Below, piece by piece: positions 3,344 to 18,862 of a DNA stretch of 44,518 nucleotides (position 1 is the stretch's first letter; every line of letters starts with the position of its first letter). The position numbers and the translations under genes were made by a program. This DNA comes from an uncultured Burkholderiales bacterium (GTDB lineage: Bacteria > Pseudomonadota > Gammaproteobacteria > Burkholderiales > Burkholderiaceae_C): contig CALMQI010000380.1 in NCBI GenBank assembly GCA_937871935.1, forward strand, positions 1 through 44,518, read 5' to 3'. The notes beneath the pieces are model-generated. The model saw only the letters and a program-made list of their open reading frames with translations, did not search any database and was not told the DNA's origin.

Positions 3344-4264
3344 TCAGGAAGAGGTCTCGGCCAGACTCCCGCGAATCCAGCCATACCAGGCCTGCAAGCC
3401 CTCGCCGGTGTACGAGGAGACGGGGAAGATCTTCAAGCGCGGATTGATCTTCTGCGCGTTGTCCATCATGAGTCGCAGGTCCACCCGCAGGTGCGGCAGG
3501 AGGTCGACCTTGCTGAGCAGCAGCACGTCGGCTGCGCCGAACATGTGCGGATACTTCAGCGGCTTGTCTTCGCCCTCAGTCACCGAGAAGATCACCACGC
3601 GGGCCGTCTCGCCAAGATCAAACAGGGCCGGGCACACCAGGTTGCCGACGTTTTCGATCACCAGCAGCGAATGCGCCGGCGGATTCAGCAGTTTCATCGC
3701 ACGGCCGAGCATGTCGGCCTCGAGGTGGCAACCGGTGCCGGTATTGACCTGCACCGCCTGCGCGCCGGTGGCGCGTATGCGCTGCGCATCGTTCACCGTT
3801 GCCTGGTCGCCTTCGACCACGTTGATGACCACATCGCCCTTCAGGTCCGCAATGCAGCGCTCCAGCAGCGTGGTCTTGCCGGCCCCCGGGCTGCTCATCA
3901 GGTTCAGTGCCGTCACTTCGCGTGCGGCCAGCCAACCCCGGTTGCGCTCCGCCAGCACCTGGTTCTTGCCCAGGATGGCGGACTCCAGCGCGATGGTCTG
4001 GCTGTCGCGGCCCGGCACCTGCAGGTCGTGGCTGTGCCCGTGAGAAGGGTCATGGGCATGGTCGCGCCCGTGATCGTGAACGTGTGAGTGATCGTGTCCT
4101 TGTGAGTGGTCATGCCCGTGGTCCAGCGCATACGTATGCGCGTGAGCATGGTCGTGTGACGGCCCGTGCGCATGCGTGGTGCCGTCGGCATGCGTGTGCA
4201 CATGGCCGTCGTCGAAGGCGGTGATCGTGGTCTGGCTGTCGCCGCAGCCGCAGATTACGCACAT
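3344..4264 (-). CDS. hypB: hydrogenase maturation GTPase HypB, histidine-rich
   Basis: HypB (306 residues) is the SIMIBI-class GTPase that delivers nickel with HypA to the apo large subunit. The N-terminus starts MCVICGCGD, matching the high-affinity Ni-binding cysteine motif of E. coli HypB. Residues about 21-81 are an extreme His-rich tract (22 His among Asp, Gly, Ser and Ala), a nickel-storage feature. The G domain follows: P-loop SSPGAGKT, NVVEGD, GTGCHLE with the metal-site Cys/His, and SKVDLL. ATG 4264 is chosen because it yields the conserved N-terminal motif; the frame is open further upstream inside hypA. It overlaps the end of hypA by 10 bases and is the last gene of the long operon. 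Confidence 0.97.
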   Translation of the reverse strand: MCVICGCGDSQTTITAFDDGHVHTHADGTTHAHGPSHDHAHAHTYALDHGHDHSQGHDHSHVHDHGRDHAHDPSHGHSHDLQVPGRDSQTIALESAILGKNQVLAERNRGWLAAREVTALNLMSSPGAGKTTLLERCIADLKGDVVINVVEGDQATVNDAQRIRATGAQAVQVNTGTGCHLEADMLGRAMKLLNPPAHSLLVIENVGNLVCPALFDLGETARVVIFSVTEGEDKPLKYPHMFGAADVLLLSKVDLLPHLRVDLRLMMDNAQKINPRLKIFPVSSYTGEGLQAWYGWIRGSLAETSS

Positions 4265-4596
4265 GATTCGGTCTCCATTTGCTTGATCTTCAGTTCGGTG
4301 CCGGCCACCACCTGCAGTGTGGGTTCGCCGCATTGGGGGCAACGGCCCAGGGGGGCCGACAACTGCGTCTGCGCGCCGCACGCAGAACAGTGGCCGCGGC
4401 CAGCGGGTTCGATGATGTTCAACTGTGCGTCCTCCAGTACCGTGCCCTTGCTGCAGACGTCGAAACAAAAGCGGATCGCCTCGGGCAGCAGGCCCGACAG
4501 TTGGCCCACTTCCAATGTCACGCTCAGCACCTTGTGGCCGTTGGCATGCTCGGCCACGATGGCCACCACGCTACGGGTGATGCCCAGTTCGTGCAT
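4255..4596 (-). CDS. hypA: hydrogenase nickel-incorporation protein HypA
   Basis: HypA (113 residues, normal length) is the nickel metallochaperone partner of HypB. It begins MHELGITRSV, where His2 is the N-terminal nickel ligand in the family (usually MHE). The zinc site is two CxxC pairs, CSACG near residue 70 and CPQCG near residue 86. The start at 4596 overlaps the hypE stop (TGATG arrangement), indicating translational coupling. Confidence 0.97.
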   Translation of the reverse strand: MHELGITRSVVAIVAEHANGHKVLSVTLEVGQLSGLLPEAIRFCFDVCSKGTVLEDAQLNIIEPAGRGHCSACGAQTQLSAPLGRCPQCGEPTLQVVAGTELKIKQMETESCA

Positions 4597-5630
4597 CAGC
4601 AGATCCTTGGCAGTTGTTCACCCACCAGCATGTCCACCACCCGCTCGCCGCCAAAGGCGGTATTCAGCACGACATGGCCCGCGTGCTCGGCCAGGACCTC
4701 GCCCACGATCGCCGCGTCGTGGCCGGCCGGGTGCGCCCGCATCGCCGCCAGGACCCCATCCGCATGGCCGCGCGGCACCACGGCGACGAGCTTCCCTTCA
4801 TTGGCCATGTACAGCATGTCGAGCCCCAGCATCTCGCAGGCGCCGCGTACTTCGGGCTTGATCGGCAGCGCCTGCTCCTGCAGGCGGATGCCCACCTTGG
4901 AGCTGGCGGCGAATTCGTTGAGAACCGTGGCCAGCCCGCCGCGCGTGGCATCGCGCAGGCAGCGGATGTCGGGGCAGGCGGCCAGCATCGCCTGCACCAG
5001 GCCGTGCAGGGGCTGGCAGTCGCTGGCGATGGTGCTTTGCAACTCGAGCTCGTTGCGCGCCACAAGGATGGCCACGCCATGGTCGCCCAGGCTGCCGTTG
5101 ACGATGACCACGTCACCGGGTCGGGCGCGCGTGGCCGAGACGTTCACGCTGCGCGGCACCACGCCGATGCCGGCGGTGTTGATGAAGAGTTTGTCAGCTG
5201 CACCGCGGTTGACCACCTTGGTATCGCCCGTCACCACCTGCACACCGGCTGCGCGAGCCGTGGCCGACATGCTGTCCAGCACCCGCTGCAGCTCGACCGT
5301 GGGAAGACCCTCTTCGATGATGAGTCCGCAGGATAGGTACAGCGGCACAGCGCCCGACATCGCCAGATCGTTGACCGTGCCGCAGATGGCCAGCTTGCCG
5401 ATGTCGCCGCCGGCAAAGAACAGCGGCGCCACCACATAGCTGTCGGTGGTAAAGGCCAGGCGGTCGCCATGTTCGGCCAGGCTGCCCAGCGTCACGGTGG
5501 CCTGGTCTTCCAGCGCCGCCAGGCGCGGGTTGTCGAAGGCGGGCACGATGAGCTTCTCGATGAGTTCGCGCATGGCGCGCCCGCCACCGCCATGGGCCAT
5601 GGTCAAGGTCGTGTCGCGCAGGCTTGCCAT
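4596..5630 (-). CDS. hypE: hydrogenase maturation protein HypE
   Basis: HypE (344 residues) converts a carbamoylated C-terminal cysteine to a thiocyanate, which supplies the CN ligands of the active-site iron. Visible features are the N-terminal MAHGGGGRAM glycine-rich motif, the AIR-synthase/PurM-like ATP-binding fold (FTTDSYVV, GDIGKLAICGTVNDLA, VTGDTKVV), and the invariant C-terminus PRIC carrying the modified cysteine. The start lies 13 bases after the hypD stop. All key residues looked for are present. Confidence 0.97.
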   Translation of the reverse strand: MASLRDTTLTMAHGGGGRAMRELIEKLIVPAFDNPRLAALEDQATVTLGSLAEHGDRLAFTTDSYVVAPLFFAGGDIGKLAICGTVNDLAMSGAVPLYLSCGLIIEEGLPTVELQRVLDSMSATARAAGVQVVTGDTKVVNRGAADKLFINTAGIGVVPRSVNVSATRARPGDVVIVNGSLGDHGVAILVARNELELQSTIASDCQPLHGLVQAMLAACPDIRCLRDATRGGLATVLNEFAASSKVGIRLQEQALPIKPEVRGACEMLGLDMLYMANEGKLVAVVPRGHADGVLAAMRAHPAGHDAAIVGEVLAEHAGHVVLNTAFGGERVVDMLVGEQLPRIC

Positions 5631-5643
5631 CGGGTGCTGTGCT

Positions 5644-6786
5644 TCAGGCGGCGGCCATGGCGTCGCGCTTGACGAAGGCCATGCGCGAATACTGGTGGTA
5701 GGCCGCGCAGGCGCCTTCGCTGGACACCATCAGCGCGCCCATCGGTGTCTCCGGCGTGCACAGCGTGCCGAAGACCTTGCATTGGCTGGGCTTGATGACG
5801 CCCTTGAGCACCTCGCCACACTGGCAGCTCTTGGGATCGGCGATCTTCAGGTTGGGCACCGAGAACCTTTGTTCGGCGTCGAAGCGGGCATAGGCGCGGC
5901 GCATGCGCACGCCCGAATGGTCGATCGAGCCCAGGCCGCGCCACTCGAAGAACTCGCGCAACTCGAAGACCCTGGTGATGGCGTCCAGCGCAGCCGGGTT
6001 GCCGTCCTCGGGCGCGATGCGCTTGTACTGGTTCTCGACCTCGCAGCGGCCCTCGCTCATCTGCTTGAGCACCATCCACAGCGCCTGCAGGATGTCCAGC
6101 GGCTCGAAGCCGGCCACCACCAGCGGCCGGTGGTACTGCTTTGCAATGAAGTCGTACGGCCGGCTGCCGATGACCATGCTGACGTGGCCGGGGCCGAGGA
6201 AGCCGTCGATCTGCAAGTCGGGCGAATCAAGGATGGCCTTGACCGTGGGGATGATGGTGATGTGGTTGCAGAACAGCGAGAAGTTGCGCACGCCCTGCGC
6301 CTCGGCCTGCAGCACCGTCATCGCCGTGCTCGGCATCGTGGTCTCGAAGCCCAGGCCGAAGAACACGACCTCGCGGTCGGGGTGGCGCTGTGCCAGCTTC
6401 AGCGCGTCCAACGGCGAATACACCGTGCGCACGTCGGCGCCCTCGGCCTTGGCCCGCAAGAGGCTCTTCTTCGAGCCTGGAACGCGCATCGCATCGCCGA
6501 AGCTGGTCATGATGACCTGCGGATGCTCGGCGATGGCCACGCAATCGTCCACGCGGCCCATCGGCAGCACGCACACCGGGCAGCCCGGCCCGTGCACGAA
6601 CTCCAGGCTGGGCGGCATCAGGTCTTTCAGCCCGTAGCGGAAGATCGTGTGCGTGTGCCCGCCGCACACCTCCATCACTTGCAGCGGGCGCGGTTTGCCG
6701 GCGGCCAGCGCATCGGCCAGGCGCGAGATCTCGGCCACCAGCGACTTGGCGAGTTCGGGGTCGCGGAACTCGTCGGCGAACTTCAT
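5644..6786 (-). CDS. hypD: hydrogenase maturation protein HypD
   Basis: HypD (380 residues) is the [4Fe-4S] scaffold on which the Fe(CN)2CO unit is assembled with HypC. Diagnostic motifs are EVCGGHTHTIFRYG (about residues 39-52), GPGCPVCVLP (about 67-76), the GLGFETT motif and the C-terminal cluster-binding region with CQCGEVLKG, CKVFGTLC and SSEGACAAYHQY. The start at ATG 6786 overlaps the stop of the preceding SIS-domain gene as ATGA. An upstream in-frame extension inside that gene is rejected because it lacks conservation. Confidence 0.97.
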   Translation of the reverse strand: MKFADEFRDPELAKSLVAEISRLADALAAGKPRPLQVMEVCGGHTHTIFRYGLKDLMPPSLEFVHGPGCPVCVLPMGRVDDCVAIAEHPQVIMTSFGDAMRVPGSKKSLLRAKAEGADVRTVYSPLDALKLAQRHPDREVVFFGLGFETTMPSTAMTVLQAEAQGVRNFSLFCNHITIIPTVKAILDSPDLQIDGFLGPGHVSMVIGSRPYDFIAKQYHRPLVVAGFEPLDILQALWMVLKQMSEGRCEVENQYKRIAPEDGNPAALDAITRVFELREFFEWRGLGSIDHSGVRMRRAYARFDAEQRFSVPNLKIADPKSCQCGEVLKGVIKPSQCKVFGTLCTPETPMGALMVSSEGACAAYHQYSRMAFVKRDAMAAA

Positions 6787-7487
6787 TTCAGCGACCCCTT
6801 CGAAGCGCGGTCGGGCAGGCGGTAGTCGGCCAGCAGCGTGTGCGTCAGGTCCCACAGGATGTGGTAAAGCGCGACATGCGTCTCCTGCACGCGGTGGATG
6901 CTGTCGGTAGGCACCACGAGGCACAGGTCCAGGTCGGCACTGGCGGCCATGCGGCCACCATCGCCACCGGCCAGGCCCAGCGTCGCAGCGCCCCGGCGCT
7001 TGGCCGCGCCCAGGCCGGCCAGCAGGTTCTCGGAGTTGCCGCTGGTGGAGATGGCCACCACGCAGTCATGCTCGCCCACATGGGCCAGCACCTGGCGCGT
7101 GTAGACATGAACGAAGCCCACATCGTTGGCCACTGCGGTGATCATGGCCATGTCCTGGCTCAGGTTGACCGCCGGCAACGCCGGCCGGCCTGCCGTGACC
7201 GGGTGCTGGAACTCCACCGCCAGGTGCGCCGCATCGCAGCTGCTGCCGCCGTTGCCTAGCGTGTACAAGCGCCCACCGGCGCGAAAACTCTGCGCCAACA
7301 TGCGCGCGGCCTGCACGATGCGTGACGCCTCGCTGGCAAAGAAGCGCTGTTTCACGGCCACGCTGTCCTCGGCTTTCAGCCGCACCGCGTCCAGCAGGCC
7401 CGCGTGCAGCGCGGCGGGCTCCTGCGCGGGCGCGTCGGCCGGCGCCATGTGCGGGTACAGCCCGGAGAGTTGGGCGCGGGTGTTCAT
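6783..7487 (-). CDS. SIS-domain protein, GmhA-like, embedded in hyp operon
   Basis: A 234-residue sugar-isomerase (SIS) domain protein resembling sedoheptulose-7-phosphate isomerase GmhA. The phosphosugar-binding loops are LGNGGSSCDAAHLAVEF and ISTSGNSENLLAGL, and the C-terminal HILWDLTH helix is GmhA-like. It overlaps hypC and hypD by four bases each (ATGA), so it is made with the maturation proteins rather than with lipopolysaccharide genes. From general knowledge, GmhA-like genes recur in hyp clusters of several uptake hydrogenases, but no role in maturation is established. A cryptic role in ligand biosynthesis or nucleotide-sugar handling is possible; plain GmhA activity is the alternative. 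Confidence 0.85.
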   Translation of the reverse strand: MNTRAQLSGLYPHMAPADAPAQEPAALHAGLLDAVRLKAEDSVAVKQRFFASEASRIVQAARMLAQSFRAGGRLYTLGNGGSSCDAAHLAVEFQHPVTAGRPALPAVNLSQDMAMITAVANDVGFVHVYTRQVLAHVGEHDCVVAISTSGNSENLLAGLGAAKRRGAATLGLAGGDGGRMAASADLDLCLVVPTDSIHRVQETHVALYHILWDLTHTLLADYRLPDRASKGSLK

Positions 7488-7777
7488 CGCGCCGCAAGCG
7501 CCGCATCGCTTTGGCGCATAGCATCGATTTCGGTCTGCGCCTCACCCAGCATCTTCAACACGTCCAGCGTCAGCTGGGCCTCCTTCTCGTCGATGCGGCT
7601 CATCGCAAAGCCCACGTGCACCAGCACCCAGTCGCCGATGCAGGCGTCCACCGGGTGGGCCTCATCGACCACGCAGGCGATGTTGATTTCTCGCTGCACG
7701 CCCATCACGTCCACCAGGGCCAGCTTGTTGCCGGCATGGGTGATGGCGACGATGCGACCGGGGATGCCTAGGCACAT
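7484..7777 (-). CDS. hypC: hydrogenase assembly chaperone HypC/HupF
   Basis: HypC (97 residues) binds the large-subunit precursor and HypD and shuttles the Fe(CN)2CO moiety. The mature N-terminus MCLGIPGRIV carries the essential Cys2; GDWVLVHVGFAMSRID matches the conserved central region. ATG 7777 is required to place Cys2 correctly, although the frame is open upstream within hypF. Its start overlaps the hypF stop by 10 bases and its stop overlaps the SIS gene start. Confidence 0.96.
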   Translation of the reverse strand: MCLGIPGRIVAITHAGNKLALVDVMGVQREINIACVVDEAHPVDACIGDWVLVHVGFAMSRIDEKEAQLTLDVLKMLGEAQTEIDAMRQSDAALAAR

Positions 7778-10218
7778 GGTGTCGGGTCCTTTGTTCGGAG
7801 TTGGCGCGCCGCGGCCACGACGGCCTGCCCCAGGGCCAGGCCGCCGTCGTTGCAGGGCACCTGCCGGTGGGCCAGCATGGTGTAGCCGGCCTCGCGCAGT
7901 TGGGCGGTCACGCGCTCGTGCAGCACGCGGTTCTGGAACACGCCACCGCTGAGCGCCACGGTGCGCAGCGGGTGCTCGGGGTCGGGCGCCTGCGCGACCT
8001 TGTCGACCATCCGGCAAATGACCTGGGCCAGGCCCTTGTGGAAGCGTGCGGCCATGGTGGGAACCGGTGTCTTCAGCACCAGGTCGCCCAGCAGCGCGGT
8101 CCACATGGCGAGGGGTTCGATGTAGGGCAGGTTGCCCACCTTCAAACGCGGAATGGCGAAGGGGTAGCCGAGCTGGTCGTCCTCATGCAGCAGCACCTCG
8201 CGGTCGACCAGGGCTTCCATCTCGACCGCGCCCTGGCCTTCGTAGGCGGCACGATCGCGGCACAGGCCCATGGCGGCGGCCGCGGCATCGAACAGGCGCC
8301 CGCACGAGGTGGCCAGCGGCGAGTTCACGCCCCTGGCCAGCATGCCGTCCAGCAGCGCGCGCGGCTTGACGGCGAGAAAATCGTGCAGCTCGAGTTCGGC
8401 GTAGTTCATCGCGAACGTGGGCCACTTCAGCTCGGCCATCAGGTGCGCGTAGGTGTTGCGCCAAGGCTCACGCATGGCCTGTTCACCACCTAGCAAGGCT
8501 ACGGGCTTGAAGGTGCCACAGCGGCGGAAGCTGCGGTAGTCGGCCACGGCGAACTCGCCGCCCCACAGCGCCCCGGCTTCGCCGAAACCTAGGCCGTCGA
8601 GCGCCACGCCCACCACGGGCCCGGCGTCCAGCGGCCAGCCGTTGTCGGCCAGGCAAGACGCGATGTGGGCGTGGTGGTGCAGCACTTCCACCACCTCGGC
8701 AGCAGTGGAATGGGCCTGCTTGGTCGAGAGGTATTCGGGGTGGGCGTCGCAGGCATGCACGCGCGGCGTGAAGCCAAAGTAGCTTTGCAGGTCGACCAGC
8801 GCGCGTTGCCAGTCGGCGTGGGTGGCGGCATCTTCCAGGTCGCCGATGTGCTGCGACAGCAGGGCCTGGCCGCCACGCAGCAGGCAGAAGGTGTTCTTCA
8901 GCTCGCCGCCATAGGCCAGCACGGGCGGCGCCGACTCGAAGCCCGGCGGCAGCGCCAGCGGCGCCGGCGCGTGGCCGCGGGCGCGGCGCAGCAGCCGTGG
9001 GGCACCGTCGACCACCCGCAGCACCGAGTCGTCCACCCGGCGCGCGATGGCGCGCTCATGGTCGAGCACGTAGTCGATGCCCTGGCCGGTGTTCGAAGGA
9101 AAGCGCGCGGCGAGCCCTTCCACGCTGATGGCCTGCGGCTCGTCGCTCAGGTTGCCGCTGGTCAGCACGATCGGCCGCTTCATGCGCCGCAGCACCAGGT
9201 GGTGCACGCCGGTGCTGGGCAGCATGAAGCCCAGGGTGTTCAGACCCGGGGCGATGCCATCGGCCAGGCAAGGTGTCTTCGCTGATGCCAGCTCAAGTCG
9301 CCGCTGCAGCAGCACGATGGGAGCGGCCGGGCTTTGCAGCGCCTGGGCTTCCGCGTCGCTGACCTCGCACCAGGCGCGCACGGCCTCGACGCTGGCGGCC
9401 ATCAGCGCGAAGGGCTTGGCCTCGCGGCGCTTGAGCACGCGCAGGCGCGCCACCGCGGCCGGCTGTGTGGCGTCGCACGCCAGCTGGTAGCCGCCCAGGC
9501 CTTTGATGGCCACGACGTGGCCTTTGGCCAGCAGCGTGCCGGCGGCATCGCAGTCGTCGAGGAAGGTGTAGCTGTCGATGGTGAAGGCGCGCCCGTCCAT
9601 GCGCTTGAGCCTGAGCTTGGGGCCGCACACATGGCAGGCGATGGGCTGGGCATGAAAGCGCCGGTCGGCCGGTGAGGTGTACTCGACTTGGCAGTCGGCG
9701 CACAGCGCGTAGCCGGCCATCGTCGTGCGGGGCCGGTCGTAGGGCACGCCGGTGACGAAGCTCAGGCGCGGGCCGCAGTGAGTGCAGTTGGTGAGTGCGT
9801 AGCGGTAGCGGCGTGAGAACGGGTCGAAGATCTCGGCGACACAAGCAGCGCAGGTGGCGGCATCGGCGGCGACCGCGGCGAAAGACGCTTCGCCCCAACC
9901 TGTGCTGGTACCGATCACGAACGTGCGCGGCAGCGGCTGCGGCAAGCCCATGCGCTGACGCTCGAGTGCGCTGATGCGCGCCAGCGGCGGCGCCTCGGCC
10001 TGCACGCGCCGGGCGAGCTGGTCGAGCATTTCCTGCGTGGCCACGGCGCTGATGAGCACGCCCTGGACATCGTTGGTCACGGAGCCCAGTACGCCCAGTT
10101 CACTAGCCAGGCGCCACACCGTGGGCCTGAAGCCCACGCCTTGCACCGTGCCGCGCACGCGCATCTGCTCTGCAAGCAAAACCTGCGCCGGAGTAGTGGC
10201 GGGAGTCGCCAGACTCAT
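7768..10218 (-). CDS. hypF: carbamoyltransferase HypF
   Basis: HypF (816 residues, slightly long for the family) makes thiocarboxamide on HypE from carbamoyl phosphate. Domains in order: N-terminal acylphosphatase (VRGTVQGVGFRPTVWRLA, about 22-40); paired zinc fingers (CAACVAEI, CTHCGPRLS, CADCQVEY, CHVCGPKL, about 115-200); YrdC-like domain (KGLGGYQLACDA, KRREAKPFALM); Kae1-like C-terminal domain with the metal motif HHHAH in VLHHHAHIAS and SGGVFQN near the end. The start at 10218 overlaps the NHL gene stop (ATGA). All catalytic motifs are intact. Confidence 0.97.
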   Translation of the reverse strand: MSLATPATTPAQVLLAEQMRVRGTVQGVGFRPTVWRLASELGVLGSVTNDVQGVLISAVATQEMLDQLARRVQAEAPPLARISALERQRMGLPQPLPRTFVIGTSTGWGEASFAAVAADAATCAACVAEIFDPFSRRYRYALTNCTHCGPRLSFVTGVPYDRPRTTMAGYALCADCQVEYTSPADRRFHAQPIACHVCGPKLRLKRMDGRAFTIDSYTFLDDCDAAGTLLAKGHVVAIKGLGGYQLACDATQPAAVARLRVLKRREAKPFALMAASVEAVRAWCEVSDAEAQALQSPAAPIVLLQRRLELASAKTPCLADGIAPGLNTLGFMLPSTGVHHLVLRRMKRPIVLTSGNLSDEPQAISVEGLAARFPSNTGQGIDYVLDHERAIARRVDDSVLRVVDGAPRLLRRARGHAPAPLALPPGFESAPPVLAYGGELKNTFCLLRGGQALLSQHIGDLEDAATHADWQRALVDLQSYFGFTPRVHACDAHPEYLSTKQAHSTAAEVVEVLHHHAHIASCLADNGWPLDAGPVVGVALDGLGFGEAGALWGGEFAVADYRSFRRCGTFKPVALLGGEQAMREPWRNTYAHLMAELKWPTFAMNYAELELHDFLAVKPRALLDGMLARGVNSPLATSCGRLFDAAAAAMGLCRDRAAYEGQGAVEMEALVDREVLLHEDDQLGYPFAIPRLKVGNLPYIEPLAMWTALLGDLVLKTPVPTMAARFHKGLAQVICRMVDKVAQAPDPEHPLRTVALSGGVFQNRVLHERVTAQLREAGYTMLAHRQVPCNDGGLALGQAVVAAARQLRTKDPTPCA

Positions 10219-11453
10219 GGCACGACCTCATCTGCGGCCAGCGGCCACAGCAGCACGCGGTTGTTGCCCGAGTCGGCCACCAGCAGCGTGGGCGGCGCGC
10301 CGTCGATGGCGGCCACGCTGTAGGGCCAGCAGACGCTGTCGCGCGCCGCAGGCAGCCAGCGGTTGTCGCCCTTGCTGTTCCAGTCGTGCTGGGCCGCGAG
10401 CGCGCCGGCGTTGACGCCGTGGCGCGTGATGTCCTGCACGCGCCAGGCCAGCAGGCGCGAGTTGGCGGTGTCGGCAACGGCCAACAGCGAGCCCACCATC
10501 ACGGCGCCGTAGGGCATGTTCAGGCAGGCGGCGTCGGGGTAGTAGCTTGCCCGGTTGTGGTCGACCACGGCGTCGTTGGCCTGGCCCACGATCAAGTCGC
10601 AGCCGGTGTTGTGGGCCAGCGGTGCTCGGCGCCACAGCATCAGGCGGTTGTTGCCGGCATCGGCCACGCACAGGCCGCCGGCCGGGAACGTGATCGCGTG
10701 CGGCCAGCGCATGCTGCGTGCGGTAGGCGCGCCGCCGCCGTTTTCATCGCGCGTGGCAAAGCCAGCCTGACCCAATACGAGATCGGCCGCGGCGCCATGG
10801 TGTTGCGGCAGACCCTGCCACATCAGCACGCGGCGGTTGCCGGTATCGGCCACCCACAGGCGCTCACCGTCCCAGGCCACGCAGTACGGCCAGAACAAAG
10901 TGCCCGCATCGGGCTGGCTATGTCCGCGGTTGGACTGCCCGCCGTCGAAGTCGGACTGACCCACCACCACGTCAGGCCGCTGGTACGACTGCGTCGGGCG
11001 CCGGTGCCAGATCAACACCCGGTGGTTCCATGCATCGGCCACCGCCAGGCCCGCGCCGTCGCGCCCGCAGACGGCGATGCCCGTGGGCACGTTCATCGTG
11101 TCCTCGTTCGCATTGCCGCCGGCGTTGCGGCCCTCGCGGTCGAAGGCCGGCTGGCCGAGCAGGATATCGGCCGGCGTGCCGTCGGCCTCGGGCAGACGGC
11201 GCCAGCCCAGCACGCGGTGGTGGCCGGTGTCGGACACCCAAAAGGATCCGTCCGCCGCGGCGCACACGCCCCGCGGACCGAACATCGATTTGGCAGAAGG
11301 CACCACGGGTGCCGCCATGCCTAGCGCGTCGTCGGTGGCACCCAGGATCACCCGGGCGCCCGCCGGGTGCAGCAGGGGCGCGCAGGGCGCCGCGGCGGCC
11401 GGCGCTCTGCGCGCGACCGGGGCCAGCGAGACATGGGCGGTGATGGTGGCCAT
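10215..11453 (-). CDS. NHL-repeat beta-propeller protein of the hydrogenase operon
   Basis: About 412 residues with at least six NHL-type repeats, seen as recurring 'VADxxNxRVLxW' units (VSDTGHHRVLGW, VADAWNHRVLIW, VADTGNRRVLMW, VADAGNNRLMLW, VADTANSRLLAW, VADSGNNRVLLW), each followed by a 'GQ..FD' type loop. A six-bladed beta-propeller is expected. No signal peptide is evident from ATG 11453, which lies 7 bases after the Rieske gene stop; the open frame continues upstream but overlaps that gene. NHL proteins recur in group 2a hydrogenase operons; a scaffold or docking role is inferred, not shown. It overlaps hypF by four bases. Confidence 0.88.
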   Translation of the reverse strand: MATITAHVSLAPVARRAPAAAAPCAPLLHPAGARVILGATDDALGMAAPVVPSAKSMFGPRGVCAAADGSFWVSDTGHHRVLGWRRLPEADGTPADILLGQPAFDREGRNAGGNANEDTMNVPTGIAVCGRDGAGLAVADAWNHRVLIWHRRPTQSYQRPDVVVGQSDFDGGQSNRGHSQPDAGTLFWPYCVAWDGERLWVADTGNRRVLMWQGLPQHHGAAADLVLGQAGFATRDENGGGAPTARSMRWPHAITFPAGGLCVADAGNNRLMLWRRAPLAHNTGCDLIVGQANDAVVDHNRASYYPDAACLNMPYGAVMVGSLLAVADTANSRLLAWRVQDITRHGVNAGALAAQHDWNSKGDNRWLPAARDSVCWPYSVAAIDGAPPTLLVADSGNNRVLLWPLAADEVVP

Positions 11454-11460
11454 GCGTGCG

Positions 11461-12366
11461 TCAGCGCTGCAGCCGCACGGCCACGCGCTCACCGGCCACC
11501 TTGACGGCATGCACGGCGAGTTGCACCTCGGGCACGGTCAGGCATTCACCGGTTTCCAGCGCATAGACAAACCCGTGGTACGGGCAGCGCAGCGTGCCGT
11601 TGTCGAGCTGGCCGCCATCCAGCGGCATGCCCATGTGGGCGCAGGCGTTGTCCACGCAGGACACGGCCTGGCCATTGCGGTACAGCAGCACGTCGCGGCC
11701 ATTCACGGTGCGCACGGCGATGCCGCCCTCGGGCAGATCACCCAGCGCGCAGACATCGGCCCAGCCGGCGTCCTGCTGGCGCGCGAAGGGGCTGACGAAG
11801 TGGACCACCTGCGTGCCGTCGGCCGAGGTTTCGGACGCGCCGCGGCTGACGCGCTGCACCGTGGTGATCTCGGGGCACAAGGTCTTGATGGATTTCTCCA
11901 CGCCTTCGGTGAGGGTCTCGCCCGCAGAGGGGCAGGACTGGCAGGAACCGATCAGCCGCACTTCCACCGTGTCGGGCGGCTTCACGGCCACCAGTTCGAC
12001 ATCGCCGCCGTGCTCCTTGAGCGAGGGGCGCACCTCATCGAGCGCGCGGCGCACGCGGCTTTCCAGTGGCTCCTTCACCAGGCCATGGAACAGCAGCACC
12101 TGGTAGACCAGCGGGTCGCGCACCGCGCCGCGCAAAGCCTGAGCAGCCGCGGGGTCGGTCTTGAGGGCGCGGATCAGGCGCCTGAAGGCCTCGGCATTGA
12201 GCTCCTCGATGCCGGTCTTGATGGCCGAAAGCACGGCCTGCTGCGCCGGCTCCCAGCCGCTGGCCAAGCCCTGCAGCCGCACGATCTCGCCCGCCCGCCG
12301 GGTCACCTCGGCGGCAGCTTCGGCGTGCTGCGCCTGCTCGTCGAGCGCCGGGTCGCGTGCGGTCAC
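11461..12366 (-). CDS. NifU-domain/Rieske [2Fe-2S] fusion protein, probable electron-transfer partner
   Basis: A 301-residue fusion. The N-terminal ~95 residues are helical with no named family. A NifU C-terminal-type domain follows (about 95-175) with the CxxC of GSCQSCPSAGETL. A Rieske domain (about 200-300) has CAHMGMPLDGG and CPYHGFVY, giving the 2 Cys/2 His ligand set. GTG 12366 is preferred because the longer frame overlaps the upstream membrane gene and is not protein-like. In mycobacteria, Rieske-type proteins in uptake-hydrogenase operons are proposed to pass electrons from hydrogenase to the respiratory chain, and the same job is inferred here. The NifU part may hold or deliver an Fe-S cluster. 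Confidence 0.88.
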   Translation of the reverse strand: MTARDPALDEQAQHAEAAAEVTRRAGEIVRLQGLASGWEPAQQAVLSAIKTGIEELNAEAFRRLIRALKTDPAAAQALRGAVRDPLVYQVLLFHGLVKEPLESRVRRALDEVRPSLKEHGGDVELVAVKPPDTVEVRLIGSCQSCPSAGETLTEGVEKSIKTLCPEITTVQRVSRGASETSADGTQVVHFVSPFARQQDAGWADVCALGDLPEGGIAVRTVNGRDVLLYRNGQAVSCVDNACAHMGMPLDGGQLDNGTLRCPYHGFVYALETGECLTVPEVQLAVHAVKVAGERVAVRLQR

Positions 12367-12380
12367 GGTGCCTTGCCCGA

Positions 12381-12602: not shown

Positions 12603-12611
12603 GGCCGGCCC

Positions 12612-12809
12612 TCAGCGAGTGAAGTAGAGAACAGCCAGGCCGATGACAGCGGCCGGCAACACGGCGGTCGGGCCGTAGAAGGCGCCCATCAAGGCGGCCA
12701 GTTCCTTGCCCAGTGCGTCGGCGCCAATCTTCAGGCCGCTCACGGCACCCGCGGCCAGCGCAAGGACCAGTGCCAATACCAACAAACCCAATAGGCCAAG
12801 TGCCGTCAT
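12612..12809 (-). CDS. small membrane protein of hydrogenase operon (65 aa)
   Basis: A 65-residue protein with hydrophobic helices at about 3-24 and 43-62, separated by a short polar loop containing GLKIGADALGKEL. It is unrelated in sequence to its 73-residue neighbour. It lies 55 bases after the TPR gene. Function is not known. Two consecutive tiny membrane proteins directly before a Rieske protein suggest a membrane dock for electron output. Confidence 0.68.
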   Translation of the reverse strand: MTALGLLGLLVLALVLALAAGAVSGLKIGADALGKELAALMGAFYGPTAVLPAAVIGLAVLYFTR

Positions 12810-12864
12810 GCAGAGAGCTCCGTCGTGAAGTGAGAGATTGATGAACCTGGGAGGGCCGATCCGT

Positions 12865-13866
12865 TCAGTGCGACTGCACGCGCCGGTGCTCGAGTTCCGA
12901 CGAGATGTCGTTGACGACCTCGGCCATCATGGCCGCCTTCTGCGCATCGCCATGCTGCGCGAAGAGCACCTGCGCCTCGCGCGCCAGGGCCAGTGCATCA
13001 CCGAGCGGGTCGCCGCCCCGCGACGCTTGCGGGCCTTCGTTGCCGGCCTGCACCGGATCGGGCACCAGGCTGCGCAGCACATTGGCCTTGTTGGCGATGG
13101 TGTTGGCGTATTCCAGCGGCGTGTCGCGCGGATTACGCACCTTCAGCGCCTCGTCGTAGGCCGCCAGCGCGCGCAGGTTGTTCTCGAGCACATGGCTGCT
13201 GCTGGCGTATTGCAGGGCGTTGCCCAGGTTGTTGTTGATCATGGCGTACTCGCTCGGGTGGTCGATCAGGTTGATGACCTTGAGCACCTCTTCGAACGAC
13301 TGCACCGCCAGCGCCTCGCGCATGCGGCCGCGTTCGTCAGTCGCAGGCATCGACAGGTAGCAGATGGCCAGGTTGTTGTGCAGCACCGCGTACTCCTGCG
13401 CGAAGCGCTCGCGCGTGAAGGTGCGCAGCGAGCGGTGGTAGGCCGCAATGGCATCGGTGACGCGGCCACGGCCGAGGCCGGACAAGGCCTGCAGCACCAG
13501 GCCCAGGTTCAACTCGGCTTCCGCCACCTCTTCGGGTTGACCTTGCGCCTGCAACACGGGCAGCGCAGCCTCAAAGCACCCTTGCGCCCGGTCGAGTGCC
13601 GCAGGACCGCCATCGGGCAGCGCTTGCAAGGCGGTCCCCATGCGCGCCGTGATGCGCGCGCGTAGCACAGCAGCCTGCGCGGGGGCCGCCTCCATCGCGC
13701 GCTCATACAGCGCGACCGCGTCATGCACTTGCTTCGCGGACTTGGGCCGCTGCTGCATGCCCATGGCGATCTCCATGAGCATCTCCGCCCGCTCCTCGGG
13801 CGACGCCTCGGTGTCGTCGGCCGCGGCCAACGCGGCTTCGAACTGGGACTGCGAGAGGGTTTGCAC
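12865..13866 (-). CDS. TPR-repeat protein of hydrogenase operon
   Basis: A 333-residue all-helical protein with tetratricopeptide-like repeats: DAVALYERAMEAAPAQAA, AQGCFEAALPVLQAQGQP, DAIAAYHRSLRTFT, AVQSFEEVLKVINL and ALAAYDEALKVRNP. Asn/Ala-rich helix starts such as NNLAICYL and NNNLGNALQYA lie between them. GTG 13866 is preferred because GGAG lies six bases upstream; a TTG at 13929 would add an unconserved arginine-rich leader. TPR proteins are a recurring member of group 2a operons. A role as assembly platform or complex organiser is plausible but unproven. Confidence 0.82.
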   Translation of the reverse strand: MQTLSQSQFEAALAAADDTEASPEERAEMLMEIAMGMQQRPKSAKQVHDAVALYERAMEAAPAQAAVLRARITARMGTALQALPDGGPAALDRAQGCFEAALPVLQAQGQPEEVAEAELNLGLVLQALSGLGRGRVTDAIAAYHRSLRTFTRERFAQEYAVLHNNLAICYLSMPATDERGRMREALAVQSFEEVLKVINLIDHPSEYAMINNNLGNALQYASSSHVLENNLRALAAYDEALKVRNPRDTPLEYANTIANKANVLRSLVPDPVQAGNEGPQASRGGDPLGDALALAREAQVLFAQHGDAQKAAMMAEVVNDISSELEHRRVQSH

Positions 13867-13961
13867 GTGCGGCTCCGTGGGTGGCGATCGAGTCCGCCTC
13901 AATCTATCGAGCCGCCGTTGCGCCGTCAATCAGGTTTGCGAGCGAAAACTAAGTTTGCACT

Positions 13962-14315
13962 TCACGCCGAGCCTGTGCCGGCCACGGTCTGGCCCATGCC
14001 TTCGATCAACAAGGCACCGACCTCGTCGACCCAACGCAGATCGAAGCTGCGCTCGGTGGCGAAGCGCCCAAGCCCTCTTGCGGCGAGAAACTCCTCGGCC
14101 AACAGCACGCGGTCACCCTGCGCATTGCGCTGCTTGAGCAACATGCCACTCGCGCTGGGGCCGCCCAGCGGCACCAGAAAGACCAGGCCCTCGCGCTCGA
14201 GCAGGACGGCCGAGCCGGCACCGGCCAGGTAACGCTCGCAGGTCGCGCGCGACAGCAGCACCCGGCCGTCACCGATGCGAGCCTGGTGGACTATGGCGTC
14301 GTCGTCATCCGCCAT
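13962..14315 (-). CDS. conserved small protein of hydrogenase operon (117 aa)
   Basis: A 117-residue, probably cytosolic protein that starts MADDDDAIVHQARI and has alternating beta-strand-like segments (VLLSRATCERYL, AVLLEREGLVFLVPLGG, GDRVLLAEEFLAARGL). No family is recognised with confidence. The start codon lies 25 bases inside the maturation protease gene, consistent with coupling. Its place between protease and TPR genes suggests an assembly or partner role, but the sequence does not show which. Confidence 0.65.
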   Translation of the reverse strand: MADDDDAIVHQARIGDGRVLLSRATCERYLAGAGSAVLLEREGLVFLVPLGGPSASGMLLKQRNAQGDRVLLAEEFLAARGLGRFATERSFDLRWVDEVGALLIEGMGQTVAGTGSA

Positions 14316-14770
14316 TGGCGCACCTTGTCGCTGATCTGGGCGCAGACTTTGTGCGTTGCGGCTTCGACCGGCGCGGAGAGCTCGGTGCCCAGGTCCACCG
14401 TCTGCACTTCCACCAGGTACACCGTCAGGTCGGTGGGGAACTCGCTGCCGAAGATGCGCCGGCCCGCGTAGATCGCGTGGTCCCAGCGAAAGTCATGCAG
14501 GCTGTACGCGGGTTGGTGGGCGGTGTCGATCTCGCTGCCGGGTACGCGGAACACCGCCCCCGGCTCGGACCCCGAGCGGCAGGCGTCCACGACCACGAGT
14601 GCGCCCGCGCCGCGTGCCTGGAACATCACTTCCATGCCGCCCGTGCCGGCGTCAAATAGCTTCACATCGGGCGGCGGCTCGAAACGCCAGGCAGCCCGCA
14701 GCCGCTGGATCACGCGCACGCCCACGCCGTCATCGCAGCGGTTGAGGTTGCCGCAGCCGACGATGACCAT
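14291..14770 (-). CDS. hydrogenase-specific maturation endopeptidase (HupD/HyaD family)
   Basis: A 159-residue nickel-dependent protease that trims the C-terminal extension of the large subunit after metal insertion. Motifs are GCGNLNRCDDGVG (family GxGN..xxDDG with the first metal-sensing acidic residue), FDAGTGGME (second Asp), VVVDAC and a His in FRWDHAIY, the usual third ligand. ATG 14770 starts just before the first strand MVIVGCGN as expected. The upstream frame is open but unconserved. Its likely substrate is the large subunit in the same operon, where the last 16 residues after Cys-Leu-Val-Cys-Thr-Val-His would be removed. Confidence 0.92.
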   Translation of the reverse strand: MVIVGCGNLNRCDDGVGVRVIQRLRAAWRFEPPPDVKLFDAGTGGMEVMFQARGAGALVVVDACRSGSEPGAVFRVPGSEIDTAHQPAYSLHDFRWDHAIYAGRRIFGSEFPTDLTVYLVEVQTVDLGTELSAPVEAATHKVCAQISDKVRQWRMTTTP

Positions 14771-14808
14771 CGGCGACCGCGCCCGACGCGCGGACGCGCC
14801 AGCGGTGC

Positions 14809-15132
14809 TCAGATCCGCCACAGGATGCAGGACCATTGCGCCTTCACCGGCAGCATCAGCTCCGCCAGGTTGCACCAGCCGCGGTGGCGCTCGAAGTACA
14901 TGCAGGTAGCGCACGACTGCTCGATGCCGTCGGCGTCGTCGGGCGCGACGTAGGGCTTGTCCGTGAACCCTGCCGCCACCAGGCGGCCGGTCACGTCGCC
15001 ACTGTCGAGCGCCTGCAACCGCGCGGTGACGTCGTTGACCTGCTCCGAGGTGTAGGCGCGCTCGGCGTGGTGCGTGACCAGTCCGCCGGCCAGCAGCCGG
15101 CCGATGTGATCGAGCAGGGCCGACTCATGCAT
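14809..15132 (-). CDS. four-cysteine small protein B (paralogue of 15157-15471)
   Basis: A 107-residue protein whose second half contains SCATCMYFERHRGWCNLAEL followed by W-S-C-I-L-W-R-I at the C-terminus. Its neighbour at 15157-15471 has the same frame of conserved residues: C-x2-CMY-x3-HR-x-WC-x-L-x-EL-x-LP, a 5-6 residue gap, W-x-C-x-LWRI. The N-terminal half is helical and also paralogous (LVAAGFTDKPY versus MVLTGWIDKPY). Four spaced cysteines plus aromatic residues suggest a metal or Fe-S site. No named family is claimed. The gene lies between the large subunit and its protease. Confidence 0.78.
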   Translation of the reverse strand: MHESALLDHIGRLLAGGLVTHHAERAYTSEQVNDVTARLQALDSGDVTGRLVAAGFTDKPYVAPDDADGIEQSCATCMYFERHRGWCNLAELMLPVKAQWSCILWRI

Positions 15133-15156
15133 GAGGCGAGGCCCATGCCCGCGGCG

Positions 15157-15471
15157 TCAGATGCGCCACAGCCGGCACCACCACTCGGGTTCGGCTGGCA
15201 GGTCAAGTTCGGGGAGATCGCACCACTTACGGTGCACCAGGTAGTACATGCACTCCTGGCAGCGCATGCGGTCTTCGCCGTACGGCTTGTCGATCCAGCC
15301 GGTAAGCACCATCTTGCCGACCACATCCTGCGGGTCGAGTGCGCCGCACTTATCCACCAGCGTGGTGAACTCCTCGGTGCTGCCAGGAAACGGCTCGGTC
15401 TGTGTCTTCAAGCCTTCCGCCATGAGCTTGGTCATCCGTTCGCGGATGCTGCCATCGGGGTCAATGGGCAT
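15157..15471 (-). CDS. four-cysteine small protein A (paralogue of 14809-15132)
   Basis: A 104-residue protein with the motif C-Q-E-CMYYLVHRKWCDLPEL and C-terminus W-W-C-R-L-W-R-I. An additional cysteine (VDKCGALDPQDVV) is not conserved in the paralogue. It is the first gene after the large subunit, 88 bases downstream, and 24 bases precede the next gene. The pair arose by tandem duplication and then diverged. The conserved Cys/Trp pattern suggests a small cluster-binding or zinc protein; an electron-relay or assembly role is inference. Confidence 0.8.
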   Translation of the reverse strand: MPIDPDGSIRERMTKLMAEGLKTQTEPFPGSTEEFTTLVDKCGALDPQDVVGKMVLTGWIDKPYGEDRMRCQECMYYLVHRKWCDLPELDLPAEPEWWCRLWRI

Positions 15472-15559
15472 TGCGGGCTGCCTCCCGGTTCTCGATTGTC
15501 GTCGCGCGCTGCGGCGGCCGGCCGCAGCGCGCGAATGCCTTCTTCACATCTGCGTCGCC

Positions 15560-17155: not shown

Positions 17156-17180
17156 GTTGAATCCTCGATGGACTGCGTTG

Positions 17181-17777
17181 TCACAGATGGCTGATCAGGA
17201 CCACGCCGGCGCCGCTGCACGCAAGCCCAATCGCGCCGACGATCTGCGAGGAGCGATTGGCAAACAAGCGGCGCACCGACAAGCCGACGCATATGCCGCC
17301 GAAGTGCAGTGCTGCGGTGGTGATCAGGAAGCCCGCGGCGTAGCCTGCGAAGCCCGCCGCGGCGGGCGCCTCGGCACCATGGGCCAGCCCGTGAAAGCCG
17401 GCAGCCAGGGCCACCAGCCACAGGCCTGACCCGCCCGGCGTGCGCCGGGTGGCCAGGACGATCATGGCGCCGAAGATCAGCACGCTGCCTGCGATGACGA
17501 CTTCCAGCAGCGGCAGCGTGAAGCCGCTGATCCCGAGGGCCGCGCTGGACACCAGCGCGGCCATGAAGGTCGCCGGCCCCATCCAAGCACGACCGTCGGG
17601 CAAGGCAAAGACGGACCAGAGGCCGACCGCTACCATCGCCAGCAGGTGATCAAGGCCAAAGGGATGCACGATGCCTTCGAAGAAGCTCTCGGTGCCATGG
17701 CCCGTGTGTGCGGCCGCCGCACCGGCAAAGCCGGCCAGCGCGATCGCGGCGATGCCGCGCAGATGAACTTGTTTCAT
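17181..17777 (-). CDS. hupE: HupE/UreJ-family nickel permease
   Basis: A 198-residue polytopic membrane protein with a cleavable-looking N-terminus (MKQVHLRGIAAIALAGFAGAAAA) and the family signature HPFGLDHLLAM near residue 38. A second His-rich helix is FHGLAHGAEAP and a later one contains TTAALHFGGI. HupE/UreJ proteins are thought to import or facilitate diffusion of nickel in organisms with hydrogenase or urease. It is inserted between the genes for the two structural subunits, which is unusual but fits a nickel-supply role. ATG 17777 gives the signal-like N-terminus; the frame is open further upstream without conservation. Confidence 0.9.
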   Translation of the reverse strand: MKQVHLRGIAAIALAGFAGAAAAHTGHGTESFFEGIVHPFGLDHLLAMVAVGLWSVFALPDGRAWMGPATFMAALVSSAALGISGFTLPLLEVVIAGSVLIFGAMIVLATRRTPGGSGLWLVALAAGFHGLAHGAEAPAAAGFAGYAAGFLITTAALHFGGICVGLSVRRLFANRSSQIVGAIGLACSGAGVVLISHL

Positions 17778-17806
17778 TCGCTGTCTCCTGGATTCCCTGC
17801 AAGGGG

Positions 17807-18769
17807 TCAAACGACGAAGATGTCTTCTTCCGCCCACTTCGGCGCCGCGTTCTTGGCTGCGCCGGTGAGCACGATGTAGCCCTTCTTGTCCACTCCCGCG
17901 GGCAGTTCCTTGGGCACGCCCATCACCGTCTGGGTCTTGAACACCGTACCGGGAGCGAGGTCGTGGAACGGGAACTCGGGCTCGGTGCAACCCATGCACG
18001 GCATACCCGCGCGCGTCTTGGACGACTGACGGTTCCAAAGAATGCGGTTGCAAGGCGAGTGCGTCATTGGGCCGCGACAGCCCAGGTCATAGAACAGGCA
18101 ACCCTTGCGCTGGCCGAAGGCCGTGGCCGACACCTTGTACGCGAAGTGCATGTTGCGGGTGCAACCGGTCTGCGTGAAGCTCTGGAAGAAGGTCTTGGGG
18201 CGCTGGAACTCGTCCAGGCCGATGTCTCCCGCGCGCCCGGTGGCCACGGCCACGACGATCTGGGTGATCCAGTCCGGGTGCGCCGGGCAGCCCGGCACGT
18301 TGATGACCGGCAGGCCCGACTTCGACACCCAGCTCTTGCCCAGGAAACCTCCATGGTCGCGCTTGAGGAACTGCAGGCCCTGCGACTGGCTGGGGTTCGG
18401 TGCCATTGCCGGAATGCCACCGTACGTGGCGCAGTCACCGATGGCCACCACGAACTTGGCCGCGTTGCACAGCTCCTTGACCCAGTCCTTCATCGGTCGA
18501 CCGGCGAAGCGGTTCCACTCGCCCGTTCCGCTGGGCGCATTCACCACGCTGCCCTCGAAGACGAAGATGTCCAGCGGCACGGCACCCGACACGCAGTCGC
18601 GCAGCATCTTCTGCAGGTTGTCGCCCAGTTCGACGCCCAGGGACGGATGCCACAGCACGTTGATACCGAAGTCAGTCACCAGGTCGCAAGCACTGGGCTC
18701 TTCGGCATTCAGGAACGACATGGTGTTGCCGGAACACGCGCCACCTTGCAGCCACAAGAGGTTGGCCAT
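17807..18769 (-). CDS. hupS: [NiFe]-hydrogenase small subunit, group 2a (HupS/HucS type)
   Basis: The 320-residue Fe-S subunit that carries electrons away from the active site. The N-terminus NLLWLQGGACSGNTMSFL matches the cyanobacterial HupS/mycobacterial HucS pattern; there is no Tat leader, unlike group 1 enzymes. The usual proximal-cluster CxGC motif is Cys12-Ser-Gly-Asn15, so one cysteine ligand is replaced by Asn. Other cluster cysteines are in GDCATYGG, PGCPAHPDW, TGCTRN, KGCLFYDLGCRGP, SPCNRILW and MPCMGCTEPEFPF. A strong ribosome site, AAAGGAG at 18783-18777, precedes ATG 18769 by seven bases. It is the first gene of the operon, about 80 bases from a sigma-54 promoter. Confidence 0.95.
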   Translation of the reverse strand: MANLLWLQGGACSGNTMSFLNAEEPSACDLVTDFGINVLWHPSLGVELGDNLQKMLRDCVSGAVPLDIFVFEGSVVNAPSGTGEWNRFAGRPMKDWVKELCNAAKFVVAIGDCATYGGIPAMAPNPSQSQGLQFLKRDHGGFLGKSWVSKSGLPVINVPGCPAHPDWITQIVVAVATGRAGDIGLDEFQRPKTFFQSFTQTGCTRNMHFAYKVSATAFGQRKGCLFYDLGCRGPMTHSPCNRILWNRQSSKTRAGMPCMGCTEPEFPFHDLAPGTVFKTQTVMGVPKELPAGVDKKGYIVLTGAAKNAAPKWAEEDIFVV

Positions 18770-18776
18770 CGAAAGT

Positions 18777-18783
18777 CTCCTTT
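18777..18783 (-). promoter_or_regulatory. strong ribosome binding site of hydrogenase small subunit
   Basis: AAAGGAG on the minus strand, seven bases before ATG 18769. It fixes the start of the small subunit. Confidence 0.8.
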
Positions 18784-18847
18784 GTCAAAGTCACACGGGC
18801 AGTGAACTGGCCACCGCATGGAAAGTGAGTAGTCGGTCGACCTTTCC

Positions 18848-18862
18848 GCATGTGCCGTGCCA
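18848..18862 (-). promoter_or_regulatory. sigma-54 (-24/-12) promoter for the hydrogenase operon
   Basis: On the minus strand the sequence is TGGCAC-GGCAC-ATGC, against the consensus TGGCAC-N5-TTGC. The invariant GG and GC doublets and their spacing are exact; only one base of the -12 box differs. It lies 78 bases before the small-subunit start, predicting transcription from near 18836. A sigma-54-dependent activator gene is encoded immediately upstream, which supports the call. Confidence 0.82.

Follow-up and report, generated by a model that had tools for sequence, protein, structure and literature searches.

By what route do electrons leave a group 2a [NiFe]-hydrogenase in whose genome the quinone-delivering scaffold of its closest solved relative is not found? 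The question is raised by a 44,518-nucleotide stretch of DNA (hereafter the window) from an uncultured Burkholderiales bacterium of the Burkholderiaceae_C (contig CALMQI010000380.1 of GCA_937871935.1, positions 1 to 44,518 of the forward strand), in which a first-pass annotation had placed one hydrogenase operon of about 18 genes at positions 3344–18862. Judging from its sequence, this is very likely a complete, self-contained operon for a cytoplasmic uptake hydrogenase of group 2a (Huc/Hup type), whose electrons would exit to quinone and which would let the cell gain energy from trace H2. In mycobacterial Huc, menaquinone is described as being delivered by the scaffold protein HucM (PMC10017518). 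In the window, two small proteins encoded just after the large subunit gene, which we label hip1 and hip2 (names coined here), are the candidates that we consider below.

The operon and its hydrogenase class

Structural, accessory and maturation genes lie on the minus strand in a single run that opens with hucS (18769) and closes at the stop codon of hypB (3344), in the order hucS, hupE, hucL, hip1, hip2, protease, p117, TPR, two small hydrophobic open reading frames (ORFs), hucE, NHL, hypF, hypC, SIS, hypD, hypE, hypA and hypB. Start codons were picked from position and ribosome-binding-like sequence. All 18 junctions fall between -28 and +95 bases, which bears out the extent and the close packing on one strand described earlier; the gene count rises to 19, the additional one being a 65-residue hydrophobic ORF at 12809–12612. 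Pfam identified HucS, HupE/UreJ, HucL, a HycI-type protease, NifU plus Rieske domains, NHL, HypF, HypC, a SIS-domain protein, HypD, HypE, HypA and a CobW/HypB-type protein. The first-pass annotation had recognized a TPR, NHL and NifU-Rieske set, and the latter two were recovered by Pfam; the TPR-type protein had no Pfam match and takes its label from annotated homologues. A Rieske-type hucE and an NHL gene at the locus, both present here, are given as a group 2a feature in PMC7784904.

The motifs GACSGNTMSFL in the small subunit and DSCLVCTVH in the large subunit are present as had been noted. The closest solved relative is Mycobacterium smegmatis Huc (PDB 7UTD, 7UUS; PMC10017518), with which the window has the cluster-ligand pattern and the quinone-site residues in common: against all PDB chains (phmmer), HucL matched it at 645 bits (next 206) and HucS at 536 bits (next 130). 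HucL continues for 16 residues beyond DSCLVCTVH, where the M. smegmatis chain stops. Compared with that system, the window adds hip1/hip2, the small hydrophobic proteins, a sigma-54 activator and HupE. The mycobacterial Huc locus on an M. intracellulare plasmid has the NifU-type HucE, NHL and Hyp genes as in the window; on plasmids of that species (L111), huc also stands beside Calvin-type genes for a bisphosphatase, aldolase, gap and pgk.

A scan with HucL, using one genome per species, gave 215 relatives, of which the best 80 were kept (78–95% identity; 17 non-cyanobacterial and 63 cyanobacterial loci). The 17 come from betaproteobacteria, gammaproteobacteria, Hyphomicrobiales, Nitrospirales and Acidobacteria; distant group 2a loci, for example on Chloroflexota, Actinomycetota and Bacillota chromosomes, fall outside this sample, and plasmid records represent a few of them. 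The large-subunit phylogeny that the first-pass annotation had proposed as a check comprised 49 rows, including 10 of the 63 cyanobacterial loci and leaving out L010, and should be read as midpoint-rooted, with bootstrap not fully settled and with long outgroup branches. It grouped the window with loci L017 and L018 (100/96), inside a 37-row clade (100/100) holding all hip rows and the cyanobacteria, that is, proteobacterial, Nitrospira, Acidobacteria and cyanobacterial sequences. The cyanobacteria are nested among the hip rows (97/89 and 98/97). HucM-bearing and Bacteroidota group 2a rows come next outside this clade, and seven distant rows lie further out. HucL thus groups with cyanobacterial HupL and apart from the distant rows, and the tree, the PDB comparison and the cluster-ligand pattern described below all support the group 2a placement proposed earlier. 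One of the distant rows, L006 (G018:C2), is a 38%-identical hydrogenase from a genome of the same family, with Asp and His at the two ligand positions that are Asn15 and Gln200 in the window (see below); its long branch lies outside group 2a and is shared with no other row.

Relatives are few. Matches covering most of HucL stayed at or below 38% identity in the 59 relatives of the host that were searched; at E 1e-120, HucL matched 4 of 398 sampled Pseudomonadota genomes (the host included), so the gene set is rare and patchy, and at E 1e-100 a relative was present in 17 plasmid records. Plasmids of Sphingopyxis, Bradyrhizobium, Mesorhizobium, Novosphingobium, Octadecabacter and Roseovarius show the gene order again minus hupE; in Octadecabacter and Roseovarius the SIS gene is missing as well. 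Besides the host, only L017 and L018 among the loci fetched have hupE between hucS and hucL (BLAST); HupE-family proteins are thought to carry nickel. Some of the related loci have peculiarities of their own. Metagenome-assembled genomes assigned to Burkholderiales, Hydrogenophaga and Lysobacteraceae (L020, L021, L027) have identical HucL, a sign of recent transfer or misbinning; Sinimarinibacterium flocculans (L025) has a second hucS/hucL-like pair (41% and 36% identity) a few kilobases before its group 2a genes; and in Mesorhizobium huakuii (L131) huc lies beside Calvin-type genes for phosphoribulokinase, transketolase and a bisphosphatase.

The operon type has already been seen in Acidithiobacillus ferrooxidans and Sphingopyxis alaskensis. 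The A. ferrooxidans Hup operon is described with HupR, NifU-Rieske, GmhA and Hyp genes and with a putative high-potential iron-sulfur protein (HiPIP), DN052_04130, near hupLS, unknown genes lying alongside (PMC7735108); we equate DN052_04130/04125 with hip1/hip2 from position and annotation, not from sequence. The S. alaskensis RB2256 plasmid (NC_008036.1) carries a sigma-54 activator, hucS, hucL, hip, hip and protease, and so on to hypE (hip by profile), without HupE between hucS and hucL; its HucL is 75.5% identical to the window's, and H2 uptake to sub-atmospheric levels has been published for this bacterium (PMC10305171).

Cluster ligands and the quinone site

The HucS N-terminus, MANLLWLQGGACSGN, has no export leader. 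Absence of such a leader is taken to mean a cytoplasmic enzyme, so the hydrogenase should be cytoplasmic. Asn15 and Gln200 replace fourth cluster ligands in the window, as in 24 of 24 other HiPIP-type rows, three of three HucM-type rows and both Bacteroidota rows, and the medial cluster has three Cys (the ligand-to-cluster assignment is one that we presume). Cyanobacterial rows have Asn15 in 59 of 61 cases and Gln200 in all 61, the two exceptions being misaligned or cut at the start, whereas the rows that we label group-2b-like have Cys and His at these positions (6/6). By sequence, N15, Q200 and the three medial Cys match the three [3Fe-4S] clusters reported for M. smegmatis Huc (PMC10017518).

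The same report assigns the binding of menaquinone to Tyr301, Lys212 and Tyr229 (M. smegmatis numbering), for which the window has Tyr298, Lys212 and Tyr227. None of the three varies across the 91 group 2a rows, of which 61 are cyanobacterial, 25 hip-type (with the window), three HucM-type and two from Bacteroidota. Two of the 63 cyanobacterial loci yielded no HucS row, and L023 and L088, with no usable hucS, were left out of these and of the promoter counts. The six group-2b-like rows have Glu and Phe at the two quinone-site Tyr positions, and the distant row L006 keeps both Tyr. Given that the residues are the same in every group 2a row, direct quinone reduction on HucS is the best-supported exit in the hip branch too, and the difference between the branches is how quinone reaches HucS.

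HucL would split H2, and the electrons would cross the three HucS clusters, all [3Fe-4S] by their ligands, to leave to quinone at the conserved site. Contact with the membrane may run, in place of HucM, through HucE, the two small hydrophobic proteins and hip1/hip2, these last probably being docking partners or small electron carriers of the [4Fe-4S] kind. Loose BLAST matched the small hydrophobic proteins in 63 and 50 loci, of both hip and cyanobacterial type, and they are candidate membrane anchors. We infer that the enzyme is active, probably tolerant of O2 and air, and high-affinity, with quinone as its acceptor. Some points weigh against this picture. The group label rests on our own tree and PDB comparison rather than on HydDB; the quinone site was defined with menaquinone, and Burkholderiales, the likely relatives of the host, mostly use ubiquinone; and the host assembly is in 463 contigs, with 91.7% completeness and 3.1% contamination.

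Physiological role in the host

It was fair of the first-pass annotation to regard the oxidation of atmospheric H2 as a real possibility, since sub-atmospheric H2 uptake is reported for group 2a enzymes of other proteobacteria (PMC7784904, PMC10305171). The cell would most likely gain energy from trace H2, both external and from its own nitrogenase. The host assembly contains nifH, nifD, nifK, nifE and nifN, all above NCBIfam cut-offs, on contig C445, and a second, membrane-linked hydrogenase on contig C310. The PDB entry nearest to the large subunit of this second enzyme is 3MYR, and its gene neighbours are TmcC- and TmcB-like, an arrangement that we take to be Isp-type, group 1e. Both contigs resemble the window in composition (correlations 0.956–0.978). 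With a nitrogenase and a second hydrogenase in the assembly, the operon alone leaves the physiological role unsettled.

Because the host carries nifHDKEN, recapture of H2 from its own nitrogenase, as proposed for cyanobacterial HupSL, is a live alternative to air scavenging as the main job of the enzyme, and HucL is 78–81% identical to HupL of many cyanobacteria. We regard it as possible but short of an even bet: the assembly is incomplete and has the nif genes on a different contig, NCBIfam does not place the regulator beside huc in NifA (283.7 bits against a cut-off of 528.85), and the second, membrane-linked hydrogenase could serve the same purpose. The two roles, recycling H2 from nitrogenase and scavenging it from outside, are not mutually exclusive.

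A HiPIP-like pair behind hucL

Both hip proteins end in C-x2-C ... C ... W-x-C-x-L-W-R, and the four Cys are invariant in 24 hip rows. AlphaFold2 models had pLDDT values of 90.4 (hip1) and 88.2 (hip2). With Foldseek against the PDB, the top match of hip1 was a HiPIP (probability 0.77, E 0.44, TM 0.60 by HiPIP length and 0.38 by hip1 length), while none of the 12 hip2 matches at E <=10 was a HiPIP, which counts against the fold reading for hip2. A second-look aligner listed HiPIPs in 15 of 15 entries for hip1 (Z 3.1–5.3, 29 chains aligned) and in 12 of 12 for hip2 (Z 4.3–5.6, 33 chains aligned), where Z below 8 may mean just a common arrangement and where we presumed PioC to be a HiPIP. A profile of the 24 hip rows aligned to one of eight HiPIPs with the four Cys in register (hhalign score 28.4, probability 57.7%); the maximum was 18.0 over 40 column shuffles and 22.3 over 120 shuffles with the Cys columns fixed. 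The eight HiPIP sequences come from Pseudomonadota genomes; two further HiPIP loci, L119 and L125, gave no ORF by the pattern used and are outside the profile.

At the sequence level, hip1 found chance matches only in the PDB (best E 0.46), and neither protein matched any Pfam family at E 0.001 or reached the cut-off of PF01355, the HiPIP family. Nor did we find an export signal in either: there is no RR in the first 35 residues, and the top 19-residue hydropathy is 0.64 and 0.88, whereas all eight HiPIP ORFs from Pseudomonadota genomes have a twin Arg near the start. The pair is like HiPIPs in the register of its four Cys and may be so in its predicted fold, and differs from them by three helices before the cluster part and by its linkage to hucL, as well as by the missing export signal and Pfam match. 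On these last two grounds we read hip1 and hip2 as HiPIP-like proteins that are not PF01355 members; the likeness may reflect common descent or a shared cluster motif.

Distribution of hip and HucM

Among the best 80 of the 215 loci, hip1 matched in 17 of the 17 non-cyanobacterial and none of the 63 cyanobacterial loci, although cyanobacterial L068 extends only 105 bases past hucL and is too short to judge. By profile, hip was found in 13 of 13 genomes behind hip-type loci and in 0 of 10 cyanobacterial genomes, in all three alphaproteobacterial plasmids and none of four other plasmids, and in 2 of 148 genomes of a Nitrospira sample that was searched for hip and not for hucL. In the 398 Pseudomonadota genomes it occurs in the same four that have hucL, and in the three besides the host the first copy begins 92–155 bases after hucL. 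Many hip genes are tandem pairs; a single copy stands beside hucL in L019, L022, L024, L025 and L058. There are copies away from hucL in G452 (L145, before the TPR gene of an accessory operon) and, as a partial match, in G451 (L146), so that the link to hucL is strong, not absolute. The cyanobacterial loci also differ in layout, some or all accessory genes lying on the opposite strand in the six loci drawn. On the tree the hip pattern needs two changes, most simply one gain and one cyanobacterial loss.

We identify HucM with the DUF1641 (PF07849) gene, because that gene sits before hucS in Mycobacterium and by reference to the structure paper. PF07849 matched the Mycobacterium, Thermus and Sulfobacillus records (3 of 7 plasmid records), with the gene within ~1.7 kb of hucS. 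It gave no match in the host, in 13 other HiPIP-type genomes or in six cyanobacterial genomes, nor in the three alphaproteobacterial plasmids and the Runella plasmid; Runella had neither HucM nor hip by profile. A hidden Markov model (HMM) from the three HucM proteins matched just those three genes in the loci searched (next E 0.3 and 0.97), and it found nothing at the Hymenobacter locus (L130). The search covered 20 whole genomes, some of them incomplete, and the seven plasmid records, with the hip-bearing G280, G419 and G421 outside it; a very divergent HucM could escape such profiles, as the HucM-like protein HysM of archaeal group 2e is only 18% identical to HucM (PMC11018855). The presence of HysM in that archaeal group, a sister lineage, makes HucM the probable older state.

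From these distributions we tentatively sketch two exit designs, a scheme that we would not yet favour over its negation. The older one would be an HucM tube, in mycobacteria, Thermus, Sulfobacillus and, by publication, archaeal group 2e. The proteobacterial, Nitrospira and Acidobacteria branch would have lost HucM and gained a cytoplasmic, HiPIP-like [4Fe-4S] pair after hucL, which the cyanobacteria would then have lost.

Candidate roles of hip1 and hip2

The exit of electrons from proteobacterial and cyanobacterial group 2a enzymes is described as open (PMC6883350, PMC7735108). In A. ferrooxidans, two proteins are named as likely ubiquinone links, the putative HiPIP encoded near hupLS and NifU-Rieske (PMC7735108), and the HiPIP idea is thus already in print for one species. 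The literature that we searched, which excluded most subscription papers, held no statement of the pairing of hip, of how widely it extends over the phyla or of HucM being absent from this branch.

Could HucS electrons go to hip1/hip2 rather than directly to quinone, the pair being obligate carriers that replace HucM? The HiPIP-like fold and cluster motif, the close linkage to hucL, the presence of hip where HucM was not found and the published A. ferrooxidans proposal all speak for this. We nevertheless find it rather unlikely. The quinone-site residues are the same with or without hip, and the cyanobacterial genomes searched have neither HucM nor hip, so a group 2a enzyme manages without either. 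The structural likeness is itself limited by the plain Foldseek result, at E 0.44 for hip1 and with no HiPIP for hip2. Nitrospira and Acidobacteria generally use menaquinone, and as hip occurs there too, it does not track ubiquinone.

It is similarly doubtful that hip1 and hip2 are assembly or structural factors for HucSL, binding a cluster or zinc, instead of electron carriers. Their genes do lie between hucL and the maturation protease gene, and for mycobacterial HucE an assembly or scaffold role is left open by the authors of PMC6883350. However, the cyanobacterial genomes and the records of Mycobacterium, Thermus and Sulfobacillus carry homologous hydrogenases with proteases, and the search for hip found none in them.

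Promoter and regulator

The sigma-54 promoter proposed earlier corresponds to a sigma-54-like site upstream of hucS that matches 9 of 10 fixed positions. Four sites of this quality occur across both strands of the whole window, and one site alone is weak evidence. It is supported by its recurrence: a site matching at least 9 of 10 positions lies within 300 bases upstream of hucS in 15 of 24 related loci (several of them near-copies), compared with 3.25% of 300-base stretches drawn at random (2000 in all) and with none of the nine loci of HucM or cyanobacterial type. The adjacent sigma-54 activator would switch the operon on. Its Response_reg match, at 28.5 bits, is under the cut-off of 30.2. 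Receiver domains generally have Asp at a column which in 19 activator rows holds Glu in nine (the window included), Asp in eight and other residues in two; with Glu in this column, phosphorylation control of the window's activator seems doubtful.

A group 2b role, in which the enzyme would sense H2 for this adjacent activator, is highly improbable. We rejected it because HucL shares only 34–38% identity with the group-2b-like large subunits of relatives and because the cluster ligands differ. HucL also has a protease gene alongside and a tail that extends past the last metal-ligand motif, whereas sensor hydrogenases are not known to have such a tail. A search of the host with PF00374 gave no group 2b large subunit, only the two hydrogenases and one match below the cut-off on contig C68.

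Terminator-like sites were as frequent as in shuffled sequence (7 observed, 7.1 expected), and the six on the minus strand fall within genes. One sigma-70-like site (13929–13901; 1.3 expected) precedes the TPR gene, within the largest gap of the run, so a second transcription start inside the run seems possible.

Between the activator gene and hucS lies a gene for an 80-residue protein with no Pfam or NCBIfam match and a chance match only in the PDB (E 1.3), possibly a regulatory partner. We considered it as HucM and rejected it, there being no DUF1641 match in the host and its motif being different.

Flanking genes

A phage-type integrase gene (699–1478) lies near the left end of the window, and DUF1173, LPD7 and TraG/VirD4-like genes lie at the right end (40149–44516). 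Given these genes, the operon may sit on a mobile element. Positions 36–44.5 kb gave no match to a plasmid collection. We also looked for recent transfer in the composition and saw no sign of it, the tetranucleotide correlation of the operon with another part of the window being 0.955. At 36595–38408, a lower-GC stretch has DUF6527, DUF6791-ThiF (E1-like) and multiubiquitin genes in a row, a ubiquitin-like cassette and possibly a defence system.

Table 1. Features of the hydrogenase operon and its upstream region, in the order of transcription
Feature	Position	Strand	Evidence
Sigma-54-dependent activator (HupR/NtrC type)	19265..20731	-	Pfam Sigma54_activat 205.9 bits, HTH_8
80-residue protein ending CxxC...CPxCGN, overlapping activator gene end	19026..19268	-	motif in 12 ORFs / 11 distinct genes, all HiPIP-type loci
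Sigma-54-like -24/-12 site TGGCAC-N5-ATGC	18848..18862 (first T 18862)	-	first base 93 bases before hucS start
HucS, small subunit, no export leader	17807..18769	-	Pfam; best PDB match M. smegmatis Huc small subunit, 535.6 bits; ligand and quinone-site residues
HupE/UreJ-family membrane protein, in hucS-hucL gap	17181..17777	-	PF04955, 151.7 bits
HucL, large subunit, 531 residues	15560..17155	-	PF00374, 253.5 bits; best PDB match M. smegmatis Huc large subunit, 645 bits; tree
hip1, 104 residues, HiPIP-like, four invariant Cys, no signal peptide	15157..15471	-	AlphaFold2, structure matches, profile comparison
hip2, 107 residues, hip1 paralogue	14809..15132	-	37% identity to hip1; AlphaFold2; second-look alignments
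Hydrogenase maturation protease	14291..14836	-	PF01750, TIGR00072
p117, 117-residue accessory protein	13962..14315	-	no Pfam/NCBIfam family; BLAST match in 17/80 loci
TPR-type accessory protein	12865..13866	-	58/80 loci; tetratricopeptide annotation of the homologues in Thermus and Sulfobacillus plasmids
Small hydrophobic protein 1, 65 residues, two hydrophobic stretches	12612..12809	-	no Pfam match
Small hydrophobic protein 2, 73 residues	12381..12602	-	no Pfam/NCBIfam match
HucE, NifU and Rieske domains	11461..12366	-	PF01106, PF00355
NHL-repeat protein	10215..11453	-	PF01436
HypF	7768..10218	-	Pfam
HypC	7484..7777	-	Pfam
SIS-domain protein (GmhA-like)	6783..7487	-	PF13580; BLAST match in 10/80 loci
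HypD	5644..6786	-	Pfam
HypE	4596..5630	-	Pfam
HypA	4255..4596	-	Pfam
HypB, His-rich N-terminus	3344..4264	-	PF02492

Implications

For the host, the operon adds one more probable H2 scavenger, in a bacterium that probably also fixes nitrogen. For the family, the hip pair, nearly always tied to hucL, is a small and testable candidate for the link from group 2a enzymes that lack HucM to the respiratory chain, and S. alaskensis, a sequenced and culturable bacterium with published H2 consumption, carries the pair.

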